IMG/VR virus record: IMGVR_UViG_3300025652_000440
Coordinates: 1 to 26,781 of that record
Length of the DNA stretch: 26,781 nt
Source: a virus
Strand: one strand, 5' to 3'
Within the stretch, counting starts at the first letter, position 1, and every line of letters begins with the position of its first letter. Under the pieces are notes generated by a model. The model saw only the letters and a program-made list of their open reading frames with translations. It had not been told where the DNA came from and made no database searches. Below, piece by piece: positions 1 to 9,411 of the stretch. The position numbers and the translations under genes are program-made.

Positions 1-15
1 ATTAACAAAGTTTTA

Positions 16-297
16 TCATTTAAGATTACAACAGCCCCTCCCTTTATTTTTTTTAATTTTTTTTAACTCATACTCCAAATGATCAATTGCTTTACTAATA
101 CATTCAACACCCTCATCATCATGTTTTCTTTTACAACGCAATATATATGTTACAGCATTGCCTAAATCATAAGACAAATCAAACTCATGTATAACGTCAA
201 TTGCTTTCATACCATCCAACCCAATGTAATAACATGGAGTTTTATCAATAGGCTTATTCCTATCGCATTCATAATAATGTTTACTTTTTTCTTTCAT
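16..297 (-). CDS. DUF3310 family phage protein
   Basis: This 93-residue protein fits the DUF3310 family, small phage proteins found near replication and nucleotide-metabolism genes whose biochemical role is not settled. The visible pattern is a YYIGLDGMKAIDVI segment (about residues 23-36), then a GNAVTYILRCKRK segment (about 46-58), then a helix with KAIDHLEYEL. This matches the family layout of an aromatic-rich start, a 'GNaiKYllR' core and a 'KAkwYL' helix. The ATG start overlaps the end of the HNH gene upstream by 17 bases, which suggests translational coupling. It is the last complete gene of the block at the left edge of the window. Confidence 0.75.
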   Translation of the reverse strand: MKEKSKHYYECDRNKPIDKTPCYYIGLDGMKAIDVIHEFDLSYDLGNAVTYILRCKRKHDDEGVECISKAIDHLEYELKKIKKNKGRGCCNLK

Positions 298-616
298 AAT
301 TTTTTATTCCTTTTCTATATTCAACAGATTCTTTAGCTGATTTTTTATTGTGGCAGCTATTACACAATGTTTGTAAGTTAGAATGATGCAGCATTGAGCC
401 ACCTAATGTTATTGGCTTTATATGGTCCACCATTTGCCCTCCAGTTGTTCTACCTTCTCTTGTGCATTGTTCACATAATGGATTAGCTTTTATATAAAAC
501 TTTCTTGTCATCCTCCAACCTCTGCTGTGATAAAATGCAGAGTTATCCATTTGCCTTGCTTGTGTTGGTTTTGATGTTATCCAACTTCTTTTCTTTCCTT
601 TAGGTAATGTTGGCAT
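281..616 (-). CDS. HNH endonuclease
   Basis: This 111-residue protein has a complete HNH nuclease fold signature. A zinc knuckle pair C48-x2-C51 and C85-x2-C88 flanks the catalytic core D64-H65, N80 and H89. The segment MVDHIKPITLGG is typical of small phage HNH enzymes, which nick or cut double-stranded DNA with one metal ion. In many HK97-like phages an HNH protein sits beside the terminase and assists packaging. Here it lies at the far end of the replication/recombination block, so a recombination or mobile-nuclease role is equally possible. The ATG start at 616 overlaps the upstream gene by 17 bases. The specific role is inference. Confidence 0.85.
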   Translation of the reverse strand: MPTLPKGKKRSWITSKPTQARQMDNSAFYHSRGWRMTRKFYIKANPLCEQCTREGRTTGGQMVDHIKPITLGGSMLHHSNLQTLCNSCHNKKSAKESVEYRKGIKNYERKK

Positions 617-866
617 AATATTTAGCTTCTTTAATTATATCTTTATTTTCTTTTATCTTCTTGCCCAGTATTTTAAAAAACATTGTAAGCTCTTCTTTGT
701 ATTCATCATGAGCCAAACAATAACCCAATGTGCTTAACATATAAATATTCCTAATGTATTCATGCTCATTGGTCCACTTGTATTCCTTGCTCAACTCTTT
801 CAATATGTTTACAGTTTGCTCTAAGCATTCTGTTGTTGAATATGTTATCTCTAAATCTTTAGGCAT
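600..866 (-). CDS. Hypothetical protein, 88 residues
   Basis: I do not recognise this small soluble protein. It is predicted to be mostly helical, with no membrane segment, no Cys/His cluster and a lysine-rich C-terminus. Its reality is supported by tight packing: the start overlaps the end of the upstream HNH-like gene by 8 bases, and its end overlaps the start of the downstream HNH gene by 17 bases. That arrangement is typical of translationally coupled phage genes. Confidence 0.6.
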   Translation of the reverse strand: MPKDLEITYSTTECLEQTVNILKELSKEYKWTNEHEYIRNIYMLSTLGYCLAHDEYKEELTMFFKILGKKIKENKDIIKEAKYYANIT

Positions 867-1191
867 TAAGTTCTGTTATTATATAATAATACTCCAAATC
901 AACTTCTTTAATATATGCTAAGTTATGAAAATAATCTAATAGTTTCTCTCTTTCTCTTCCTTCCCACATTTCATGGCAACCTTTTCTTTCACCCATTGAC
1001 AAACAATGTAGTGTTATGTTTCTCCTATCAGTTACCAAATCACCTCTTCTTGATCTTGGTATTATATGTGAAAAACTTAAAGGCACAGCATTGCCATGTT
1101 GCCCACAACCAGAACAACAATTCTTTTCTAATAATATCTCATGATATATTTTTCTCAGCTCTCTTTTTATTTTCTCTTGTTTCTTACTCAC
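859..1191 (-). CDS. HNH-like zinc-binding nuclease, putative
   Basis: The 110-residue product has a C26-x2-C29 knuckle, then S-H42-I-I-P-R-S-R-R, N58 and a C72-H73 pair. This arrangement resembles a degenerate HNH/NinG-type nuclease core, with His42, Asn58 and His73 as the likely metal and catalytic residues. Phage proteins of this kind act in recombination or homing, but the exact family is uncertain. The start is GTG, overlapping the TGA stop of the VRR-NUC gene (GTGA overlap), so translation is probably coupled. It lies in a run of nuclease genes with NinB-like, VRR-NUC and HNH proteins. Confidence 0.6.
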   Translation of the reverse strand: MSKKQEKIKRELRKIYHEILLEKNCCSGCGQHGNAVPLSFSHIIPRSRRGDLVTDRRNITLHCLSMGERKGCHEMWEGREREKLLDYFHNLAYIKEVDLEYYYIITELNA

Positions 1192-1523
1192 ATCAAATAC
1201 TTATCCAGTTCTTCTTTACATTCCATAAATCCTTTGCAAATGACAGCCTTGTAACCTCTTTCATTTAATGCTTTAATCCATTCCTTTTGTGATGCTGTTG
1301 CCCTTCCTTTTTCTGTTTTTAATTCAATAAATAATCCATGATATAAATGATTTGGCTCACATATTTGTAAATCTGGAAAACCAGCCCAATACCCAGTTTT
1401 CTTTGCTTTCTTAGCTTGACTTATAGATGTTCTTATTCCACCAAGAGATGCACAGAATCTTGCTTTAGGATATTGCATTCTAATGTAATTAACCACGTGC
1501 ATCTGTAAATCAGTTTCATTCAT
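1188..1523 (-). CDS. VRR-NUC domain nuclease
   Basis: This 111-residue protein is a stand-alone VRR-NUC domain of the PD-(D/E)xK superfamily. The motif GFPDLQI gives P50-D51, and FIELKTEKG gives E67-x-K69, followed by a conserved glutamine (Q79) in a SQKEW helix. VRR-NUC proteins are structure-selective nucleases, and phage versions are proposed to resolve branched DNA such as Holliday junctions or replication forks. The neighbours NinB-like and HNH support a recombination/repair module. The ATG at 1523 overlaps the NinB-like gene end by 8 bases. Family assignment is firm; substrate is inference. Confidence 0.85.
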   Translation of the reverse strand: MNETDLQMHVVNYIRMQYPKARFCASLGGIRTSISQAKKAKKTGYWAGFPDLQICEPNHLYHGLFIELKTEKGRATASQKEWIKALNERGYKAVICKGFMECKEELDKYLM

Positions 1524-1926
1524 AAGTTGGTAAATTTATCCCTAATGTATCGCTGCTCCAATAACTAACATGATTCATTAAATCACTAAACTCTTGCTTT
1601 GTCAATGTTGATGTGCCTTTTATATATGCTTCTTGATAACCCTCTGCATCAACTCTTTCTCTACTTAAAAACTTATAAGATATAAGTTCTTTTGTTTCTT
1701 CTTTTGTGTAGCCAGTATGATTGCTTATTATCTCAATCCATTTCCAAAACAAACTGTTCTGATCAGCTGTTCTATTATTATTCCTTTCTGTTATTTTTAT
1801 AACAACATCTTTTCCCTCAAACTGTAATAATTGTTCTTGGAATTGTTCTTTGTTATTCAATATCAGCTTCGCCTTCTTTATTTTTCCGTAATTTTTCATT
1901 GTTCCATATTGTTGTATGAATAGCAT
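1516..1926 (-). CDS. NinB-like recombination protein
   Basis: The 136-residue frame (127 residues if the inner ATG at 1899 is used) resembles lambda NinB/Orf, a mediator that binds single-stranded DNA and helps load recombination proteins. Visible family traits are an R-x-A-D-Q-N-x-L-F-W segment after a basic stretch, a helical 'H-x-G-Y-T-K-E-E' region, and a late S-T-x-x-L-T-K-Q-E-F helix. The 5' part overlaps a small membrane-protein frame. The ATG at 1926 has a GGGAG nine bases upstream, while the inner ATG at 1899 has none. VRR-NUC directly downstream fits a recombination unit. Confidence 0.7.
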   Translation of the reverse strand: MLFIQQYGTMKNYGKIKKAKLILNNKEQFQEQLLQFEGKDVVIKITERNNNRTADQNSLFWKWIEIISNHTGYTKEETKELISYKFLSRERVDAEGYQEAYIKGTSTLTKQEFSDLMNHVSYWSSDTLGINLPTYE

Positions 1927-2005
1927 AAATTACAACTCCCAAACCTAAAACCATAAGTATTGGAGTTAGTAAAATTGATATTATTATTTTAAGTAAATCT
2001 ATCAT
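1853..2005 (-). CDS. Small single-span membrane protein, 50 residues
   Basis: A 50-codon frame starts with ATG at 2005 and fills the gap in front of the NinB-like gene. The product has one hydrophobic segment (about residues 5-29, rich in Ile, Leu and Val) followed by a charged tail with RKNKEGE. The layout suggests a short inner-membrane protein with a cytoplasmic C-terminus. It overlaps the NinB-like frame by 74 bases if the outer NinB start is used, or 47 bases if the inner start is used, which is long for this genome. I infer that it is real because it otherwise fills an empty spacer and encodes a clean transmembrane profile. Function unknown. Confidence 0.45.
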   Translation of the reverse strand: MIDLLKIIISILLTPILMVLGLGVVIYAIHTTIWNNEKLRKNKEGEADIE

Positions 2006-2032
2006 GTTTAAATATATATATTATTTTTTAAA

Positions 2033-2320
2033 TTAAACTAAACGAATAACCACAATGTTTTTTTTGTTTCTTTCATAAAGTTTTTTATGTTCCTCAGTAA
2101 GCTCTGTTTTCCAACTGTCTTTTATTTCAACACCAGTTTCTCTAAACCATTCCAATAATTGTTGTTTAGTGCCAATTAACCGAATATCTCTGCCAATGCT
2201 ATCATAATCAGCTATGTAGCCCCCATTAACACCTTTCTCGTAACTCCATGCCTTTGTAGGCAAAAGAGATGGCTTTAGCCACCAATCTTTTGCAACTAAT
2301 TGATCTTCTTGATTATTCAT
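2033..2320 (-). CDS. Hypothetical protein, 95 residues
   Basis: I do not recognise this protein. I chose the ATG at 2320 because it overlaps the upstream coiled-coil gene by only 8 bases; an in-frame start at 2350 would add ten residues. The sequence is rich in Trp (a DWWLKP stretch near the N-terminus) and charged residues, with an LLEWFRETGVE helix in the middle. There is no membrane segment and no metal motif. It sits in a string of small genes downstream of the initiator and is probably cotranscribed with them. Confidence 0.6.
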   Translation of the reverse strand: MNNQEDQLVAKDWWLKPSLLPTKAWSYEKGVNGGYIADYDSIGRDIRLIGTKQQLLEWFRETGVEIKDSWKTELTEEHKKLYERNKKNIVVIRLV

Positions 2321-2558
2321 CTTTTTGTGGTATTTCAGACAATTCGCCATTGTCTATGTTAATGCTTACTTTTCCATAAGTTTTTTCAAGTTCCTTTTGC
2401 ATATCATCAAACTCCTTTTCAATCTCATTCATTTGATGCAATATCTTATGCTTTTGATTTTCAAGTTTTCCAAGTTCCATATGTACTTCATTTAGTTTGC
2501 TTACATTTTCTTGTAATGCTTTTAATTCATCTTCTGTTAAATTTGTTGGTTTTGCCAT
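2313..2558 (-). CDS. Coiled-coil hypothetical protein, 81 residues
   Basis: The product is almost entirely one charged helix (about residues 8-65) with heptad-spaced Leu, Met and Ile, consistent with a short coiled coil that could dimerise. A short beta-like tail (KVSINIDNGELSEIP) follows. I cannot assign a function. The leader is A- and T-rich with no Shine-Dalgarno box, as for most genes here. Similar short coiled-coil proteins are common accessory genes in Bacteroidetes phages, but that comparison is from general knowledge only. Confidence 0.65.
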   Translation of the reverse strand: MAKPTNLTEDELKALQENVSKLNEVHMELGKLENQKHKILHQMNEIEKEFDDMQKELEKTYGKVSINIDNGELSEIPQKDE

Positions 2559-2584
2559 TTTTATTTATTTAATTATTAGTTTTA

Positions 2585-2767
2585 TTAGTTTTCTTTATTT
2601 TCATTTTTTGTTATAGAATTTATTATAAAATCATTTGTTTCATGCCATTCTATATCACATTCATTGCTACAAAATATTTCTGTATTATTAATATATGCAT
2701 AGCAATTTATGCATTCATCATCTTCTAATTCAATTATTTTTTTGGGATATAATTCTATAATTCTCAT
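2585..2767 (-). CDS. Small Cys-rich zinc-binding-like protein
   Basis: The 60-residue product carries C19-x2-C22 and C33-x3-C37, in the order CINC and FCSNEC, followed by a histidine three residues beyond a Trp-containing segment. This is compatible with a treble-clef or zinc-ribbon fold of the 'FCS-x-EC' type. The N-terminus MRIIELYPKKIIELEDDEC is acidic. Such small zinc proteins in phages are often transcription or nuclease modulators, but nothing here fixes the role. ATG start at 2767; it lies 4 bases from the end of the next gene upstream. Confidence 0.6.
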   Translation of the reverse strand: MRIIELYPKKIIELEDDECINCYAYINNTEIFCSNECDIEWHETNDFIINSITKNENKEN

Positions 2768-2771
2768 AATA

Positions 2772-3119
2772 TTAATTTAATAATTTAGTTTCTTGTCTGT
2801 AATTTAATCTTTTATCTTTTTGTTGTTCTGGAATATCCTCATTGTTCCATATAATAGACCTCCAGATTTTAATCCATTTATAATAAGTTTTTGCATTTAT
2901 ACTAAAATCATCTGTGTTTCTTACTCCATTCCAAAAGGCTTGTTGTATATCTATCCACAATAAGTTTTTAAAAGATTTCTTTAAATCATAAGCTAAACTC
3001 TGAGCCATTAATACTTTAGTTTTAGCATCAACATTATGCTGTCCAAGATCAAGATATGTTTTAGATAATAATTCAACACACATCTTAGTTAATTCTGATT
3101 CACTTATTTTTTTTATCAT
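2772..3119 (-). CDS. Hypothetical protein next to replication initiator
   Basis: I chose the ATG at 3119 over a TTG two codons upstream, giving 115 residues. The protein is helical and Trp-rich, with a QSLAYDLKKSFKNLLW segment, an 'AFWNGVRN' turn and a 'TYYKWIKIWRSIIW' helix. It overlaps the initiator gene end by 20 bases, so the two are probably translationally coupled. Genes directly downstream of phage initiators often encode helicase loaders, but I see no Walker A motif here, so that label is not supported. Confidence 0.6.
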   Translation of the reverse strand: MIKKISESELTKMCVELLSKTYLDLGQHNVDAKTKVLMAQSLAYDLKKSFKNLLWIDIQQAFWNGVRNTDDFSINAKTYYKWIKIWRSIIWNNEDIPEQQKDKRLNYRQETKLLN

Positions 3120-3765
3120 TTTCAATTTGTTTTAATATATTCATTGCCTCATTATGTGTTTGCAGATGTTTATCCACTTTACTAATTCCAACACTATTGA
3201 GCATCCATTTAGATTCATTTTTAGCCCAAGTTTTGAGCCTTCTTGATGTTGCCCAAGTTTTCATGGTGTCTTTTTTCATTATGCCTTTTTTTGTTGGCTC
3301 ACTCCAATATTCAAAAAAATCATTAAGCATCTCTTTTGTAAAATTATCAAAAGCCATAACCTCATTAAAAAATTCAATTTTACTGTTATCTTTATTAGAT
3401 TGATTATTTATTATATTATTACTTACTTGTGTTTGATTATCCGATGTCGGAAAAACCGATTTCCGATAATCGCACTTCGGTGATTCAAAAACAGTATAAT
3501 CAACTCCCAAAAACATTCCGTCTTCTCTAATTTGTTCTCTTTCAACATATCCACATTTTATAAGCTCATTCATTGTTGTTCTTATAGATGCTTTGCCTTC
3601 TTTTAAAATGGCTTCTAATCCACTAATAGATAATTTCCAAGAATCACTAAAGCTCAACAGCATAGCCAATAAGCCTTTAGCTTTTAAAGACAATCTTCTA
3701 TCCTTAAAAATACGATTACAGATAGTTGTGTAATCTTTGCTTTTTATTACTCTAACTATGTCCAT
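3100..3765 (-). CDS. Replication initiator / DnaD-like winged-helix protein
   Basis: This 221-residue protein has an N-terminal winged helix-turn-helix (about residues 10-95). The helix LSLKAKGLLAMLLSF is followed by a recognition region (LSISGLEAILKEGKASIRTTMNELIKCGYV) and a wing ending in GVDYTVFE. This is the layout of phage replication initiators and replisome organisers. A polar, Asn-rich linker (about 98-125) and a helical C-terminal domain (about 128-215) follow. By analogy the winged helix binds the origin and the C-terminus recruits host helicase. Its own gene contains an iteron-like cluster at the linker, as in several phages with origins inside the initiator gene. It overlaps the methyltransferase end by 14 bases. 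Confidence 0.75.
   Translation of the reverse strand: MDIVRVIKSKDYTTICNRIFKDRRLSLKAKGLLAMLLSFSDSWKLSISGLEAILKEGKASIRTTMNELIKCGYVEREQIREDGMFLGVDYTVFESPKCDYRKSVFPTSDNQTQVSNNIINNQSNKDNSKIEFFNEVMAFDNFTKEMLNDFFEYWSEPTKKGIMKKDTMKTWATSRRLKTWAKNESKWMLNSVGISKVDKHLQTHNEAMNILKQIENDKKNK
3435..3471 (+). repeat. CpG-rich inverted repeat with ATCGG iterons, candidate origin
   Basis: Two 7-bp arms, GATTATC and GATAATC, bracket a 37-bp element inside the initiator gene. Within it the pentamer CCGAT (ATCGG on the coding strand) occurs three times, with a further TCGG in inverted orientation, and CGC and TCGG follow just outside. Six CpG steps fall within about 40 bases of otherwise CpG-poor DNA. An AT-rich run lies next to it at about 3340-3430. 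The element corresponds to the linker of the initiator (residues about 99-110). That it acts as a replication origin is inference. Confidence 0.4.
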
Positions 3766-4831
3766 TTAGTAAGTTTTTTAATATCGCCTCCATTACATTT
3801 ACAGTTATTGAATTGCCACATTGTTTATATCTTTGTGTATCACTAACTCCTTCTGTATGATTATCTGGAAACCCTTGTAATCTCTCACATTCTATTGGAG
3901 TTAATCTTCTAATTTTATCTTGTTTTAATATAGGAGGCATTCTGGATAGTTCAGTTTCTGAATTTTTAGATGCTGTTAAACAAGGAGTTGTTTTGTCTTT
4001 TCTTTTTCTTAAACCCTCATCATTTCTATAATCTGCAACCCATTCTATTATTGTGTTATCAGTTGGACATAAATCTGCATTAGCCCTTAAACAATTTGCA
4101 ATATTATCTTTTTTTAAATCTTTTGGATTCCATTGAAAACCATTACCTTTTACCTCATGTTTGTTTTTATGATTTTTAAATCCTTCAATCATTTTATCAC
4201 TTAAATAATACTTATCATTTACATTAATTTGTAATAAATCTTTTAATTTTAATTTTAATGGTATTTCTTTTGGAAATCTAAAATTATTATCAGCATCATC
4301 TCTTATGCCTACAATAAAAATTCTCTCTCTGTTTTGTGGAATACCAAAATCTTTTGTGTTTAATACTTTGTAATATATATGATAACCTAAATTGTTAAAA
4401 GGCATTAAAGACATTTGAGTATTTGTAGTCAAGGCAAGGCAATCAATTATTGTTTGAAAAGTTTTACCATTATCATGAGAAAGTAATCCTTTTACATTTT
4501 CAGCAATAAAATATCTTGGTTTATGTTCTTTTAAATATCTTAATGCATCATAAAACAATGTTCCTCTTGTATCTTCAAAACCTCCTCTTTTACCAGCCAT
4601 AGAAAATGCTTGACAAGGAAATCCAAAAACTAAAAGATCAACATAAGATAAATCTTTCATATCTAAAGCAGTTACATCTACATACATATTTTTACAATTA
4701 AAGTTTTTTAAATATGTTTCTCTTGCATATTTATCAATATCACAAGCAAATTCTATTTCATGATTAACACCAAGATTTAATAATGCTTGTTCTGGGCTAC
4801 CTATACCACTAAAAAATGTTCCTACTTTCAT
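3752..4831 (-). CDS. C5-cytosine-specific DNA methyltransferase
   Basis: The 359-residue enzyme shows the full motif set of C5-cytosine methyltransferases. Motif I is FFSGIGSPEQAL (residues 6-17, S-adenosylmethionine binding), motif IV is GFPCQAFS with catalytic C73, motif VI is AENVKG with E111, motif VIII is QNRERIFIVG, and motif X is QCGNSITVNV near the end. The variable target-recognition region lies at about residues 190-300. Phage orphan methyltransferases commonly shield phage DNA from host restriction, and no cognate endonuclease is recognisable next to it. The ATG overlaps the previous stop as TAATG, so translation is coupled. Target sequence cannot be read from the protein. Confidence 0.95.
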   Translation of the reverse strand: MKVGTFFSGIGSPEQALLNLGVNHEIEFACDIDKYARETYLKNFNCKNMYVDVTALDMKDLSYVDLLVFGFPCQAFSMAGKRGGFEDTRGTLFYDALRYLKEHKPRYFIAENVKGLLSHDNGKTFQTIIDCLALTTNTQMSLMPFNNLGYHIYYKVLNTKDFGIPQNRERIFIVGIRDDADNNFRFPKEIPLKLKLKDLLQINVNDKYYLSDKMIEGFKNHKNKHEVKGNGFQWNPKDLKKDNIANCLRANADLCPTDNTIIEWVADYRNDEGLRKRKDKTTPCLTASKNSETELSRMPPILKQDKIRRLTPIECERLQGFPDNHTEGVSDTQRYKQCGNSITVNVMEAILKNLLNGHS

Positions 4832-5202
4832 TATTCAAATAAACTTAATTGTCCACTACCACCCCACAAAACTGTTTGTCTTTCAATACTATTTAAAACC
4901 TCAACTTGGCTTTTTATTCTTTGTTTAAGGCTTGTTATATAATCATCTATTTCACCAATATTTTCAGCAACAAAATAACCTTTGCTTGAACTACATAATC
5001 CAGGCAATTGATTTGTTATTCTTATAAAATTAATTAGCTTTCGTAATCTTGGACCAACAATGTTTAATGACTTACAAATTACTGTTGAGGTTACAGCCTT
5101 GTTTCTTCCTATTTTTGGACTCAATCCCTTAATCAACTTTTCTACTAAATCAGTTTCATAATTTGTCAATTCATAAGTATATTCCTCAAAGCCTTTAATC
5201 AT
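4831..5202 (-). CDS. Winged-helix-like replication-block protein with C-terminal beta-clamp motif
   Basis: The 123-residue protein has a helix-turn-helix-like middle (about residues 36-78, with 'AVTSTVICKSLNIVGPRLRKLINFIR') followed by a strand-like SSSKGYFVAE wing and an ITSLKQRIKSQ helix. This matches a winged-helix type seen in phage replication modules. Its last residues are GGSG followed by QLSLF (118-122) and a final Glu, a match to the bacterial beta-clamp-binding consensus QL[S/D]LF at the end of a flexible tail. I infer that it tethers a phage DNA-binding protein to the host sliding clamp (DnaN). It lies between the DnaA domain IV-like gene and the methyltransferase, and both junctions overlap. 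Confidence 0.6.
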   Translation of the reverse strand: MIKGFEEYTYELTNYETDLVEKLIKGLSPKIGRNKAVTSTVICKSLNIVGPRLRKLINFIRITNQLPGLCSSSKGYFVAENIGEIDDYITSLKQRIKSQVEVLNSIERQTVLWGGSGQLSLFE

Positions 5203-5593
5203 TTTTTATAGTGTTTAAGCCATCATTAATTTCATTTAATAATCTTTTTAACTCTTTTCTTTTTTCATAAAAACCAGCTCCATAAACATTGAATTTTTGC
5301 ATTTCTGCAATAAATTTGTCAAAATTTTGTTTTACTTCTGCATAATTGTCCATTTCAAATCTAAATTTATGAACATGGTGAACTGATGTTGCATGATTAA
5401 GATTCTTGATATATAATCTCATGTCTTTATGTTTTATTTCAATGTAATTATATAAATAATACAAAAACATTCTTTTAGCTTTTATTGTTGGTCCTTGTCT
5501 ATTATTATTATTTGTAATATCTCTGCTTTTAGCCTTGTATATCTTACAACAAGTTTTTAAAGCAAAATAAACTATTCTATCTCTTGTATTCAT
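5195..5593 (-). CDS. Orphan DnaA domain IV-like DNA-binding protein
   Basis: The 132-residue protein resembles only the C-terminal DNA-binding domain of DnaA. A helix with KSRD leads into 'IKAKRMFLYYLYNYIEIK', as in the DnaA pattern of a basic residue followed by 'R-x-x-A-MYLxRxLT'. Then comes a turn and N66-H67-A68-T69-S70-V71-H72-H73, which parallels the DnaA signature 'DHTTVLHA'. There is no AAA+ domain, so it cannot hydrolyse ATP. A helical extension (about 80-132) follows. Proteins of this type occur in Bacteroidetes phages and presumably bind DnaA-box-like sites at the phage origin. Family likeness is good; function is inference. Confidence 0.7.
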   Translation of the reverse strand: MNTRDRIVYFALKTCCKIYKAKSRDITNNNNRQGPTIKAKRMFLYYLYNYIEIKHKDMRLYIKNLNHATSVHHVHKFRFEMDNYAEVKQNFDKFIAEMQKFNVYGAGFYEKRKELKRLLNEINDGLNTIKND

Positions 5594-5594
5594 T

Positions 5595-5969
5595 TTATTG
5601 ATGGTCTAATTCATCTTTTCCATAAGTATTAAATAAGCCTATGGTTTTAATAATAACTCTTGCTAAAGCCCTTTTTTCTGCAATCTCAACTTTAAAATTT
5701 TGTCTGCAATTTTCTGTTGATGCACTTCCAAATGTTTCCATTTGCTTTAACCATTCACCATCTTGATCTTGTAAATATGAGGATGCTTTTATCACTACAT
5801 TTTCCAAAGAACAACAAATGACTTCATATTCCACTTGTATGTTTTTTTGTAATTGAATGGATTCAACTCCACTTCTTGTAATAATTACAAATCCTCTTTT
5901 ATCTTTATAAATATCCTTTTCAGATAAATTATAATCCTTATATATTTTTGTTAATTCGTTTCTATTCAT
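5595..5969 (-). CDS. Conserved phage protein with AEKRA motif, recombination-associated?
   Basis: I use the ATG at 5969 (124 residues), which forms an ATGA overlap with the upstream gene; the in-frame TTG at 6014 is less likely. The pattern METFGSAS, then VEIAEKRALARVIIKTIGL, then YGKDE is a conserved block in a common phage protein group located next to replication or recombination genes. The N-terminal half reads as alternating strands (GFVIITRSGVESIQLQKNIQVEYEVICC). A role in single-strand DNA annealing or recombination would fit the NinB-like and VRR-NUC genes nearby, but I cannot assign a named family. Confidence 0.6.
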   Translation of the reverse strand: MNRNELTKIYKDYNLSEKDIYKDKRGFVIITRSGVESIQLQKNIQVEYEVICCSLENVVIKASSYLQDQDGEWLKQMETFGSASTENCRQNFKVEIAEKRALARVIIKTIGLFNTYGKDELDHQ

Positions 5970-6184
5970 AATCTGTCTAATAAAGCCCCGAGCATTAATA
6001 ATCCAACAGAGCAAATTGATACTATTACAAAAGAGATAATATTTCCAATAATCTCTTGCTTTGTAAGTTTGTCTTTTATTGTATAGTTAACAATATCTTG
6101 TTTTTTAAAGAATTCAGTCATTTCAACTGTATTCAATAAATATTGTTTTTTATTTTGTTTGTGAGTTATAATATGTTGTTTCAT
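5966..6184 (-). CDS. Small membrane protein, C-terminal anchor
   Basis: The 72-residue product has a basic, polar N-terminal part (about 1-45) and one hydrophobic segment at residues 47-68 (IIGNIISFVIVSICSVGLLMLGALL) near the C-terminus. This is a tail-anchored topology with the soluble part probably in the cytoplasm. No known phage family is recognisable. It precedes the AEKRA-motif gene, whose ATG overlaps this stop codon as ATGA. Function unknown. Confidence 0.6.
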   Translation of the reverse strand: MKQHIITHKQNKKQYLLNTVEMTEFFKKQDIVNYTIKDKLTKQEIIGNIISFVIVSICSVGLLMLGALLDRL

Positions 6185-6195
6185 AATAATATTTA

Positions 6196-6408
6196 TTAAT
6201 TAATATATTTAAAAAATTCATTTAGATTTTTACAATTAAAAAATAAATCTATTTCATCAAAACCTAAAAACCCAATTTCATTAATTTCTATATTATCTGC
6301 ATTAGTATTTGGATTTTGTTTTATGTAATTGTTAAGCATATTTTGACTTTTTAAATTTGCTATTGTATTAAATTTATTATCATATATAACAATATTATAA
6401 TTTTTCAT
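6196..6408 (-). CDS. Hypothetical protein, first gene of the replication block
   Basis: I chose the ATG at 6408 (70 residues, MKNYNIVIYDN). A longer in-frame start at 6486 would run the coding region through a putative promoter and palindrome. The product is small and acidic, with Asn-rich stretches and a hydrophobic FLGFDEIDLFF segment. No domain is recognisable. It is the first gene after the terminator and the candidate promoter, so it may be expressed early, but that is inference. Confidence 0.5.
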   Translation of the reverse strand: MKNYNIVIYDNKFNTIANLKSQNMLNNYIKQNPNTNADNIEINEIGFLGFDEIDLFFNCKNLNEFFKYIN

Positions 6409-6480
6409 AATTTTTATTTTAGTTATTGATTTTATTTGTATTGCTAAATTACATAAACTTTTTAACATAAAAGCATAAAA

Positions 6481-6500
6481 TGTCAATAAACTTTAGTTTA
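6481..6500 (-). promoter_or_regulatory. Candidate promoter with palindromic operator
   Basis: On the minus strand a perfect 14-bp palindrome, TAAACT-AA-AGTTTA (6487-6500), abuts a TTGACA hexamer (6481-6486). The 72-base AT-rich leader down to the ATG at 6408 lacks an open coding role. A clear Bacteroidetes-type TAnnTTTG box at the expected spacing is not obvious, so the promoter call is weak. The position, just after the terminator of the late block and before the replication block, supports it. Confidence 0.35.
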
Positions 6501-6516
6501 CATGATATAAAGACAT

Positions 6517-6546
6517 AAAAAAAAGCCCTCAAATGAGAGCCTTTTT
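6517..6546 (-). terminator. Rho-independent terminator of the late block
   Basis: The minus-strand transcript forms GCUCUC-AUUU-GAGGGC (6540 down to 6525), extended by A-U pairs and followed by eight U residues. Read in this direction the stem contains one G-U wobble, whereas the plus-strand version has a C-A mismatch, so the hairpin favours minus-strand termination. It lies 60 bases downstream of the metallophosphoesterase stop codon and separates the structural/lysis genes from the replication block. Confidence 0.8.
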
Positions 6547-6607
6547 CTAACAAATATCAAATACTATGCTACATATTATATACAAAAACAGCTACAAATA
6601 TATAAAA

Positions 6608-7834
6608 TTATATTACAATTTTGAAAACTGTTTGTTTTTTTAGTGTTTTATCAAGGCTTTTTGCATTGTAAGATGATAACTCTTTGTTTATAGGATAACC
6701 ATTAAATCCTTTAGTATGTTGTAAATCAATCCTTATGTCATGCCTTTCCTTGTCTTTCATAATATATATGTTCTGAGCTGCTCTGGAGCTTAATAATAAT
6801 GCATTTTCACTATAAGAATTTGCTCCAACTAATGAACTTGATCTTGCAAATAAATCTGTTATCTTAGTTTCATGAAGATGCCCACACATCATAAAATCAA
6901 GTATTATTCCATTCCTTGCATATTTACTCATAACCTTTGCTATTTTGTCCGATTGCATATTTTTAAGCTGGTGACCATGTATTAAAAGGCAATTATGTCC
7001 ATTAACCTCAACAACTAATTCTAAGCCTCCAGATGTAATAAAATTAATATCTGGCAATAATAACCTCAACACCTCAAATATTGTAAAATCATAATTATCT
7101 GTTGCAACAATATCAACCCAACCAAGTTCATAAGCTCTTGATTCATTTCCACTAACACAACCAACACTAATATTTGCAACACTGTTTAAATCTAAAATAA
7201 AATGCTTTAATAAGTGAACACCTAAAAATGTTGCTTTTGCTCTATTTGTTGACATTGCCAATTTTTCATCTAATCTTCTATCTGAGTTTAGTAAATCACC
7301 AGTTATTGCAATAAATATCTCATTGACATTATAAAACTTGGCATATTCTTTAATATGATGTGCAAACTTCTGTAATCTCTTAGATGCAACCTCAAAATCA
7401 TATTTGTTATTTTTTAAATCTACCAGCTCATTAAAATGAGTATCTGCTATTTGGACAATGATTGCTTGTTTACCTTTACTTGTATGCTGCTTTATTGTTG
7501 TTTTAAGGCTCTCTGCTTTAAGCAAATCAATCAATGCCTTGTTGTACTCAACTAATGCATTTTCAAGCCTTGAATGTTCTCTAAATGCTTTATTTTTTAT
7601 TCTATTAAGATCAGCTTGTTTCTGGCTTCTCTTTTGTAATAAAATATTGTGTTGGATTATTTCCTTATCAGCAATGACATATTGAATTATGTCTTTTATT
7701 CTATGCCTTAATGTGTGTTTTTTTACTTTAAAATGATATTTATCAATAAGATGTTGAGCAATGGCTTGATAACCATTTCCATTCCAAAATAAAGAAACTA
7801 TTTCATCTTTATATTCTAAATATTTTGATTCCAT
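6608..7834 (-). CDS. Calcineurin-like metallophosphoesterase with N-terminal helix-turn-helix-like region
   Basis: The 408-residue protein carries the complete metal-binding motif series of calcineurin-like phosphoesterases: D131-T-H133, G179-D180, G229-N230-E231, H286-G-H288 and G318-H319-L-H321. The first 60 residues (YQAIAQHLIDKYHFKVKKHTLRHRI) look like a helix-turn-helix, followed by a basic coiled stretch (about 60-118). The combination suggests a nuclease or phosphodiesterase that acts on DNA, similar in core to SbcD/Mre11-type enzymes but without an SbcC partner. It is the last gene of the late block, right after the endolysin, which is an unusual place for a DNA enzyme. Catalysis is firm by motifs; substrate unknown. 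Confidence 0.85.
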   Translation of the reverse strand: MESKYLEYKDEIVSLFWNGNGYQAIAQHLIDKYHFKVKKHTLRHRIKDIIQYVIADKEIIQHNILLQKRSQKQADLNRIKNKAFREHSRLENALVEYNKALIDLLKAESLKTTIKQHTSKGKQAIIVQIADTHFNELVDLKNNKYDFEVASKRLQKFAHHIKEYAKFYNVNEIFIAITGDLLNSDRRLDEKLAMSTNRAKATFLGVHLLKHFILDLNSVANISVGCVSGNESRAYELGWVDIVATDNYDFTIFEVLRLLLPDINFITSGGLELVVEVNGHNCLLIHGHQLKNMQSDKIAKVMSKYARNGIILDFMMCGHLHETKITDLFARSSSLVGANSYSENALLLSSRAAQNIYIMKDKERHDIRIDLQHTKGFNGYPINKELSSYNAKSLDKTLKKQTVFKIVI

Positions 7835-8197
7835 TTAGTATGTCCAAATTACACCTTGTATTTTATCCTCATCAATATCAACATGAATAAAATTATGTCC
7901 TATCCCAAACCTTGTAAATCCAGCTTCCATTAATGCTCCTAATATTACAGCTCTTTCTCTGCTATTTTTAACAAGAATGTCAGCTGCTAATCCTTTAATA
8001 TGTGAGCTTGTAGGGTTTTTAATTGATTCTGCATGATTCTCACATCTCCAGCCACTTGTTATAATAAAAGGTATATCAGAGCCATCTTCGTTCTTAGAAT
8101 GCTCTCTTGCAGCTGATAATATTCTTACAAATGTTCTGTTAATTTTATTCTTACCACAACAATTACAAGCAAATTCTCTTAATTTAAAGTATTTCAT
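7835..8197 (-). CDS. Endolysin, peptidase M15 family
   Basis: The 120-residue protein is a compact M15 (D-Ala-D-Ala carboxypeptidase-like) zinc peptidase. The zinc ligands are H66 and D73 in S-S-H-I-K-G-L-A-A-D, and H105 in F-I-H-V-D-I-D, with D107 beside it. An arginine in SGWRCENH and an N-terminal FACNCCGKN segment are also family traits. Phage M15 enzymes cleave peptide cross-links of peptidoglycan to release progeny. No signal peptide is visible, so export needs the holin encoded three genes upstream. The start overlaps a 43-residue frame by 14 bases. Confidence 0.9.
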   Translation of the reverse strand: MKYFKLREFACNCCGKNKINRTFVRILSAAREHSKNEDGSDIPFIITSGWRCENHAESIKNPTSSHIKGLAADILVKNSRERAVILGALMEAGFTRFGIGHNFIHVDIDEDKIQGVIWTY

Positions 8198-8315
8198 ATA
8201 AATGATAAATTTTACAACCTTTTACTTCTTTAACAAATACCCTTTTATACTTAGTTTTCTCCTCAACCTTATTATATTTAGGATTTAAACTGTTTAATTT
8301 ACGTTTCTTAGCCAT
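8184..8315 (-). CDS. Very small basic protein, 43 residues
   Basis: A 43-codon frame starts with ATG at 8315 and fills the gap between the 58-residue gene and the endolysin. The product is strongly basic (MAKKRKLNS at the start, many Lys and Tyr) and has no membrane segment, so it is not an obvious spanin. Its end overlaps the endolysin start by 14 bases, and it begins directly after the upstream stop codon. It resembles short ribosomal-like or nucleic-acid-binding peptides often found in phage late operons. Function unknown. Confidence 0.5.
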   Translation of the reverse strand: MAKKRKLNSLNPKYNKVEEKTKYKRVFVKEVKGCKIYHLYEIL

Positions 8316-8492
8316 TTAATTATATTTACCCATTTCACCCTTATGCTTTCTTTGATTGCCATATTTTTTTGTTCTTGTATCAATACGTTTTGCGTAAACA
8401 TATTTTTTTTCAATTACTATTTTTTTACAAACAAGACTACCAAATTGCATCTCTAATGAGTTTCTTGTTTCTGCATTATAAAATTTAGTCAT
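8316..8492 (-). CDS. Small basic hypothetical protein, 58 residues
   Basis: I use the ATG at 8492 (MTKFYNAETR), which overlaps the holin stop by 8 bases; a longer in-frame start inside the holin gene is unlikely. The product is basic, with a KKIVIEKKYVYAKR strand-like segment and a Lys/Arg/Gly-rich end. No domain is recognised. It lies between the holin-like gene and a 43-residue gene in the lysis cluster. Confidence 0.5.
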   Translation of the reverse strand: MTKFYNAETRNSLEMQFGSLVCKKIVIEKKYVYAKRIDTRTKKYGNQRKHKGEMGKYN

Positions 8493-8880
8493 TTCTTTTA
8501 TTCTTAATCTTTTCAAAACTACGACCACCAAAATAAGCTGTATAAATAACAATTAAAAGTGTTTGATAAACTGGCACAAACTCTTCTTGAATTTCAAATG
8601 TTCCTATATTCCCACTAAAAACAGATATTATTACAAACATAAAAGTTAAAAAAGCCAAAGCAATTGGTCTAATATTTTTTGTAAGTAAACTCCCATTATT
8701 ATCACTAAGCCATCTGCTTGTAACTTGTTCTTGCATTGATTTCTCATAATCAAGCAACACTTCTTTTATTTCTTTTTTAGCTTGTAACCTTTCTTGATCA
8801 GATGTTGTTAGCTTATCAATTGTGTTTCCAACCTCTTTAACTAATTCACCAGAATTAAATAATTTATTAAAAAATCCCAT
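8485..8880 (-). CDS. Holin-like protein (3TM holin family)
   Basis: The 131-residue protein has a helical, charged N-terminal region (about 1-58), the family-like transition WLSDNNGSLLTKNIRP, a hydrophobic segment at about 71-90, and a second at about 104-120 ending in a charged tail. This matches the 'holin of 3TMs' family of gene-transfer agents and phages, where the protein forms membrane lesions that let the endolysin reach the cell wall. Its place upstream of the M15 endolysin supports this. The stop of the gene before it overlaps this ATG as TAATG. Confidence 0.75.
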   Translation of the reverse strand: MGFFNKLFNSGELVKEVGNTIDKLTTSDQERLQAKKEIKEVLLDYEKSMQEQVTSRWLSDNNGSLLTKNIRPIALAFLTFMFVIISVFSGNIGTFEIQEEFVPVYQTLLIVIYTAYFGGRSFEKIKNKRND

Positions 8881-9044
8881 TATTTCTTTTTAAAGTTCCA
8901 ATAGTAAAGTTTATACATAGAAATACTTATTGCTAAAACTAAGGAAATAAACGTCAATATTTCATTGCACTCACTCAAACTAATACCAATTGCAGATGCG
9001 TTTGGGATAACTATTTCCAAAGTATCTTTTAAATCACTATTCAT
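8880..9044 (-). CDS. Single-span membrane protein, possible second holin
   Basis: I use the ATG at 9044 (54 residues, MNSDLKDTLE), which overlaps the preceding gene by 8 bases. The product has a weakly hydrophobic segment (about 10-22), one clear transmembrane segment (about 28-47, ILTFISLVLAISISMY) and a basic end (FKKK). Small proteins with this profile next to holins act as second holins or antiholins, but that is inference from position and topology. Confidence 0.55.
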   Translation of the reverse strand: MNSDLKDTLEIVIPNASAIGISLSECNEILTFISLVLAISISMYKLYYWNFKKK

Positions 9045-9393
9045 TGTCCCAAGGTAAAGGCAAAGTTTCCTCAGTTGGATTCTTTTGCAGTTCAATATTT
9101 GCAGCTAATTGTGCATCCATTTCAGCTGGAGTTGGCTCAGTCATTTCATTTAACCAAGCATCAACATCAGCTTCTGTTAAATTTTCGTAAAGCACAAAAT
9201 CATTTGGATCTGGTGATGTCAAAGGCATAGCCCCATATACATCAGCATAATAATAATCAGCTTGACCTTCTGTTCCTTCTGATGCTGAACGCCTCCAGTG
9301 AATTTGATTGACCACATTTTTAAGTTCTTGTCCCTCAACAGTTTCTTGTATTACACAATCCATTGAAGATATTATCCATTTATAAGTTATCAT
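9037..9393 (-). CDS. Conserved phage tail-region protein
   Basis: This 118-residue acidic protein follows a pattern I recognise from small proteins beside tail fibre genes in marine phages: an N-terminal 'TYKWIISSMDC', a 'VVNQIHWRR' strand, a 'YYADVYGAMPL' strand, then 'LYENLTEADVDAWL' and an acidic C-terminal tail ending in PLPWDNE. No enzymatic motif is seen. It could be a fibre assembly factor or a minor tail component. An A-rich leader without a Shine-Dalgarno box precedes the ATG. Family likeness is from memory, so moderate confidence. Confidence 0.55.
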   Translation of the reverse strand: MITYKWIISSMDCVIQETVEGQELKNVVNQIHWRRSASEGTEGQADYYYADVYGAMPLTSPDPNDFVLYENLTEADVDAWLNEMTEPTPAEMDAQLAANIELQKNPTEETLPLPWDNE

Positions 9394-9411
9394 TTTTTTT
9401 TATTTATTTAA

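Follow-up and report, generated by a model that had tools for sequence, protein, structure and literature searches.

A conserved clamp-binding-like tail on a phage winged-helix-like protein suggests docking on the host sliding clamp

How a phage that encodes no recognisable polymerase, helicase or clamp might gain access to the replisome of its host is the question raised by a small gene in the window, by which we mean the whole 26,781 nt of the IMG/VR record IMGVR_UViG_3300025652_000440 (positions 1-26,781). The gene lies on the minus strand at 4831..5202 and encodes a protein of 123 aa whose C-terminus reads WGGSGQLSLFE, which leads us to ask whether this tail is a ligand of the sliding clamp and, if so, which process it would serve.

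A clamp-binding-like peptide behind a predicted winged helix

The pentamer QLSLF (Q118–F122, encoded at 4837..4851 on the minus strand) is an exact match to the clamp-binding consensus QL[S/D]LF. It is preceded by a GGSG linker (residues 114–117; 4852..4863, minus strand), which is probably flexible, and followed by a single acidic residue, E123 (4834..4836, minus strand), and the stop codon at 4831-4833. The initial annotation had placed the codons of the motif and numbered Q118 and F122 correctly; the protein that it described as ending in QLSLF does carry the motif but runs on for one further residue, E123. The six reading frames of the window contain the consensus QL[S/D]LF only once, one residue before a stop codon. 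According to shuffled window proteins, 0.010 occurrences per proteome would be expected by chance at any position, i.e., about 0.01 against the one found, and none of 2000 shuffles of these proteins placed the consensus at a C-terminus. Residues 118–122 combine the features that define a clamp motif (Q at position 1, L, M or I at position 4 and F at position 5), and the AlphaFold2 prediction locates them in a probably flexible terminus that follows the helix 82–113.

The core of the protein aligns with the profile of phrog_2113, a phage family with no assigned function, with E=1.2e-20 over profile positions 13–104 of 113. Neither Pfam nor NCBIfam provided a family above cut-off for this core, a search of PDB sequences with the family profile gave no relevant match at E≤1, and no paper that mentions phrog_2113 by name was found in the open-licence literature. 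The AlphaFold2 model, computed from an input alignment of 66 sequences, reached a mean pLDDT of 87.4 and comprises helices at residues 14–27, 39–46, 50–62 and 82–113 and strands at 69–72 and 75–78, with the pLDDT dropping to about 50–70 across residues 111–123. Both the three-helix bundle and the beta wing that characterize winged helices are present in the predicted model, for which the closest structural match was the wHTH of NiaR (Z 10.1, rmsd 1.4 over 63 residues), with the wHTH of BirA as a further match (Z 8–9). The winged-helix fold, previously a guess, is thus backed by the model and by its structural neighbors, and we regard the core as a predicted winged helix, bearing in mind that fold likeness alone is no proof of DNA binding.

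Conservation of the tail among relatives

Relatives were gathered from viral contigs, genomes and phage records, resulting in 156 family proteins after the removal of duplicates. Scanning genome contigs with the single protein returned no relatives and the alignment-based scan returned 13; the family-wide alignment that includes distant members was too diverse to be used as a scanning profile. Among the 132 distinct tails of the family, 38 exhibit Q..[LIM]F within the last eight residues, versus 24 of 1848 tails of other genes in the same loci and a mean of 1.5 in shuffled family tails, and since these counts are inflated by near relatives and do not constitute independent samples they are taken as enrichment rather than as exact probabilities. 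When each cluster is reduced to a single representative, Q..[LIM]F is carried by 21% at 70% identity and by 10–15% at 40–60%, against a background of approximately 1.4%; both the choice of clades and the regular-expression matching depend on the motif itself.

On a tree of the core comprising 98 rows, from which the tail was excluded, the motif is distributed over the group of the window (16 rows), a second group (11 rows) and two lone rows. The 16 rows of the window's group, which are non-redundant and divergent, conserve Q118 and F122 without exception. Position 4 is occupied by L in 11 of them and by I in the other 5, position 2 by T, L or I, and position 3 by S or T, while the F is always followed by E or D (16/16) and the linker glycines G114, G115 and G117 are invariant. 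In the second group only the Q, the hydrophobic position 4 and the F are retained (Q..[LIM]F), in combination with a linker that lacks those glycines. It has been reported that clamp binding depends most on positions 1, 4 and 5 of the motif (PMC12309361; PMC11139829) and that clamp-binding motifs are usually flanked by acidic residues (PMC11139829). The invariance of Q and F, the L/I alternation at position 4 and the drift at positions 2 and 3 are what one would expect from the known demands of the clamp pocket (PMC12309361; PMC11139829).

Of the 98 rows in the tree, about two thirds are devoid of the pentamer, as are the isolated Flavobacterium phages Fpv5 and tant8-1. The core thus works without the tail, which, being absent from the more distant phrog_2113 members, is an addition to the winged-helix core that is specific to certain clades. 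The initial annotation had made its proposal depend on the QLSLF end being kept by homologs, which holds for the near relatives, fully at Q118 and F122 in the first group and as Q..[LIM]F in the 11 members of the second, and fails in the distant ones. The tree requires at least four changes of the motif, three of them forced by starred branches, and a reduced tree places the 16 rows of the window's group on one side of a branch with low support. An independent gain in the two main clades was considered and set aside: the AU test does not reject a single clade (p 0.24) and so permits the two groups to be one, for which reason independent origins are not claimed here.

A distant gut-phage relative (L011:2285-2623) ends in GQLSLPLDGGDAP, which contains QLSLPL, a peptide of the hexamer type that binds the E. 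coli DnaN tightly (PMC12309361).

On the host side, the nearest genome-borne relative was found in a Flavobacteriales MAG, and the Y-family polymerases of genomes related to this MAG (L103) exhibit QLSLF, QMSLF, QTSLF, QINLF and similar peptides near the C-terminus. The same kind of peptide is therefore used in the presumed host group.

These observations also bear on the possibility that the tail is no clamp ligand but a chance or structural C-terminus, or a site for some other partner. Short motifs do arise by chance, 1.3% of the other genes in the same loci end likewise, and many family members dispense with the tail. Against this, exactly those positions that contact the clamp are invariant in two clades with different linkers, the tail has low confidence in the AlphaFold2 model, and most of the background matches to Q..[LIM]F belong to DNA methyltransferases and RecT-like proteins. 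We consider such a non-ligand tail quite improbable and, judging from the sequence, we regard it as likely that the protein docks on the host DnaN.

Clamp-like tails were also observed on other genes of the related phage loci. DPPY-type DNA methyltransferases end in Q..[LIM]F in 11 of 35 cases, compared with 17 of 1804 other genes (among the examples are L024:5041-6027, L029:5451-6077, L041:4369-5016, L183:5991-6656 and L152:1190-1879), and a few small proteins resembling other DNA methyltransferases bear such tails as well (L021, L027 and L073). Upstream of second-clade members, two proteins that are RecT-like by sequence appearance end in QTTLFDENV (L129:1-990) and QPTLFDENV (L099:2-991). 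Docking on the clamp via C-terminal peptides may be common in phage proteins of DNA metabolism, methyltransferases included.

The replication module around the clamp-tail gene

The gene located upstream of the clamp-tail gene, at 5195..5593 on the minus strand, overlaps its start by 8 bp and encodes a stand-alone DnaA domain IV-like protein of 132 aa. All 13 of the 13 relatives of this protein match PF08299, with the window's own copy falling below the curated cut-off; its profile finds domain IV of the E. coli DnaA (1j1v, E=2.3e-6), and its model agrees with 1j1v at a TM of 0.88 on the target and an rmsd of 1.4. Two invariant residues, R32 and H67, correspond in the 1j1v alignment to R399 and H434, which in DnaA make contacts with the DnaA box. 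Within the window's group, 14 of 16 loci contain the gene; it is absent from all 11 loci of the second group and occurs in 1 of the remaining 71. In nine of the second-clade loci, which lack the DnaA-IV-like partner, a coiled-coil-like protein of 53–71 aa is encoded directly upstream of the clamp-tail gene (e.g., L145:2995-3162 and L134:3828-4004).

Downstream, the stop of the clamp-tail gene and the start of a C5-cytosine DNA methyltransferase gene (3752..4831, minus strand; PF00145, E=7.7e-85) overlap as TAATG. In the window the methyltransferase gene is interposed between the clamp-tail gene and a DnaD-like gene, and it is not a constant neighbor in the relatives. The DnaD-like/HTH_36 protein (3100..3765, minus strand; PF13730 over cut-off; phrog_4707/428/186) resembles replication initiators or helicase loaders and is a conserved neighbor, as is the module gene located after it (2772..3125, minus strand). 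A further conserved module gene, possibly recombination-related, lies at 5595..6014 on the minus strand and has a relative in 14 of the 16 clade loci, with no confident family; E..GSA...NC and AEKR form an invariant pattern in it. In the window's group, the usual order comprises a relative of the 5595..6014 gene, a nuclease-like gene, the DnaA-IV-like gene, sometimes an SSB gene, the clamp-tail gene, the DnaD/HTH_36-like gene, sometimes a methyltransferase gene, and a relative of the 2772..3125 gene. SSB is often part of the module in this clade, and in other phages members of phrog_2113 are found near DnaD/DnaC-like, RecT, SSB or Gam genes. The vicinity of DnaA-IV-like, SSB, DnaD-like initiator and recombination genes points to a service of the clamp-tail protein in phage replication.

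The same neighborhoods allow for an adaptor of a different kind, in which the protein would couple phage annealing and recombination proteins to host forks via the clamp instead of acting at the start of replication. SSB and nuclease-like neighbors, the NinB encoded in the window, the RecT, Gam or SSB genes near relatives and the clamp-like peptides that terminate RecT-like proteins in two related loci would all suit this role; the immediate partners in the window's clade, however, are DnaA-IV-like and DnaD-like proteins of the initiation type, and we judge a recombination role unlikely.

The constant DnaA-IV-like partner of the clade, with its invariant equivalents of R399 and H434, also brings to mind Hda, which regulates DnaA, binds the clamp and has a clamp motif at a terminus (PMC11139829), and the QLSLPL of the distant relative, which is of a type known to bind the E. 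coli DnaN tightly (PMC12309361), could be cited in the same sense. A clamp-bound protein of this sort would tune host or phage initiation by way of either DnaA or the DnaA-IV-like partner. Yet Hda is an AAA+ protein, and the 123 aa of the window's protein yield a winged-helix model and no Pfam match above cut-off; with no AAA+ domain, it is unable to stimulate the hydrolysis of DnaA-ATP in the manner of Hda. Moreover, the DnaA-IV-like partner occurs in 0 of the 11 loci of the second motif-bearing clade, and the window is not enriched in DnaA boxes. Such a regulatory role therefore seems very unlikely. A scan of the window for DnaA boxes that allowed at most one mismatch gave 6 matches where 10.5 were expected and hence indicates no origin, and short repeats within positions 1-9400 formed no convincing iteron array.

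The replication enzymes encoded by these phages were surveyed by record. Pol A was found in 0 of 40 motif-bearing records, and the clamp, DnaB_C and DnaE in 0 of 27, the window included, many of the motif-bearing contigs being 23–27 kb long and, like the window record itself, possibly fragments. The initial annotation had stated that no polymerase or helicase is encoded in the window; this stands for DnaE and DnaB_C, and extends to the clamp family, whereas the Pol A result refers to the 40 relatives. That the searched records yielded no Pol A, DnaE, DnaB or clamp gene fits with use of the host DnaN. Among motif-less relatives, Pol A was found in 1 of 40, and DnaB exceeded the cut-off in 8 of 40. 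Enzyme content was also considered as a means of telling members with the motif from those without it, and was discarded since the differences (0/27 versus 8/40 for DnaB, 0/40 versus 1/40 for Pol A) are too weak and confounded by relatedness. Given that tail-less members are also mostly devoid of Pol A and DnaB, the tail does not closely track host dependence.

Candidate role and likeness to known systems

Together, these observations are best explained by a protein that serves as an adaptor of the phage replication module, and we assign a probability of roughly 0.55 to this explanation as a whole. The C-terminal QLSLFE tail would occupy the peptide-binding pocket of DnaN, the sliding clamp of the host, while the predicted winged-helix core may bind either DNA or an initiation protein of the phage. 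Phage DNA that the neighboring DnaA-IV-like and DnaD-like proteins may have marked or prepared would thus acquire or retain the clamp and polymerase of the host, to the benefit of a phage without recognisable polymerase, helicase or clamp. In a more specific version, which is possible but doubtful, the stand-alone DnaA domain IV would mark the phage origin and the winged-helix protein would recruit or retain the host clamp there via QLSLF, and a phage of about 25 kb without those enzymes would in this manner take over the host replisome clamp-first.

The opposite purpose has also to be weighed, namely that the protein fills the clamp pocket, displaces the host polymerases and shuts off host replication. 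DnaN-targeting phage proteins that stop host replication do exist (PMC3594737), and a peptide of consensus strength would compete against the host polymerases. Nevertheless, gp168 targets the DNA channel of the clamp instead of inserting a peptide into the pocket (PMC11139829), the gene sits within a conserved module of replication and recombination genes, and a phage that lacks a recognisable polymerase would appear to need the host clamp to be free. Shut-off of the host is accordingly an improbable function in our view, and recruitment of the host replisome to phage DNA the likeliest one, although we infer this purpose with less certainty than the docking. The earlier suggestion that the protein would either capture the host replisome or block host replication is thereby narrowed, given that the context favors a service in replication and nothing was found for the block.

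Host-replisome capture by small polymerase-less phages is usually attributed to helicase loading, as with lambda P and DnaD/DnaC-like proteins. If the adaptor explanation is true, the clamp itself would be a second handle, gripped by a conserved docking tail from within the same module. It would also provide phrog_2113 with a directly testable role. The open-licence literature searched offered no precedent for a phage winged-helix protein that bears such a tail and is encoded next to a DnaA-IV-like protein.

Several known systems exhibit parts of this arrangement. The core belongs to the same family as phrog_2113 (E=1e-20), the tail being an addition in some clades only, and the protein encoded at 5195-5593 shares with DnaA domain IV the fold and the box-contact positions, yet it stands alone, without AAA+ and domain I. 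With the clamp motifs of Pol II, Pol IV, Pol V, PolC and Hda (QL[S/D]LF or, more generally, QxxLF), the tail has in common the consensus, the terminal site, a probably flexible linker and a trailing acidic residue; here, however, the motif is carried by a phage winged-helix protein instead of a polymerase, a repair protein or an AAA+ regulator, and its binding is predicted. C-terminal beta-clamp motifs have also been reported in transposases (IS1634 and others; PMC4549789), which likewise are proteins of mobile elements that keep a terminal QLxLF-type motif amid variable sequence, although the protein described here belongs to a phage, bears no transposase domain and is encoded in a replication module. 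Finally, gp168 of Twort and gp240 of G1, both from staphylococcal phages, shut off host replication through DnaN (PMC3594737), and they resemble the window's protein as small phage proteins that engage the host DnaN, shown in their case and proposed in ours. The resemblance ends with the mode of action, in which gp168 combines the DNA channel with host shut-off and the window's protein a pocket-type peptide with a replication module.
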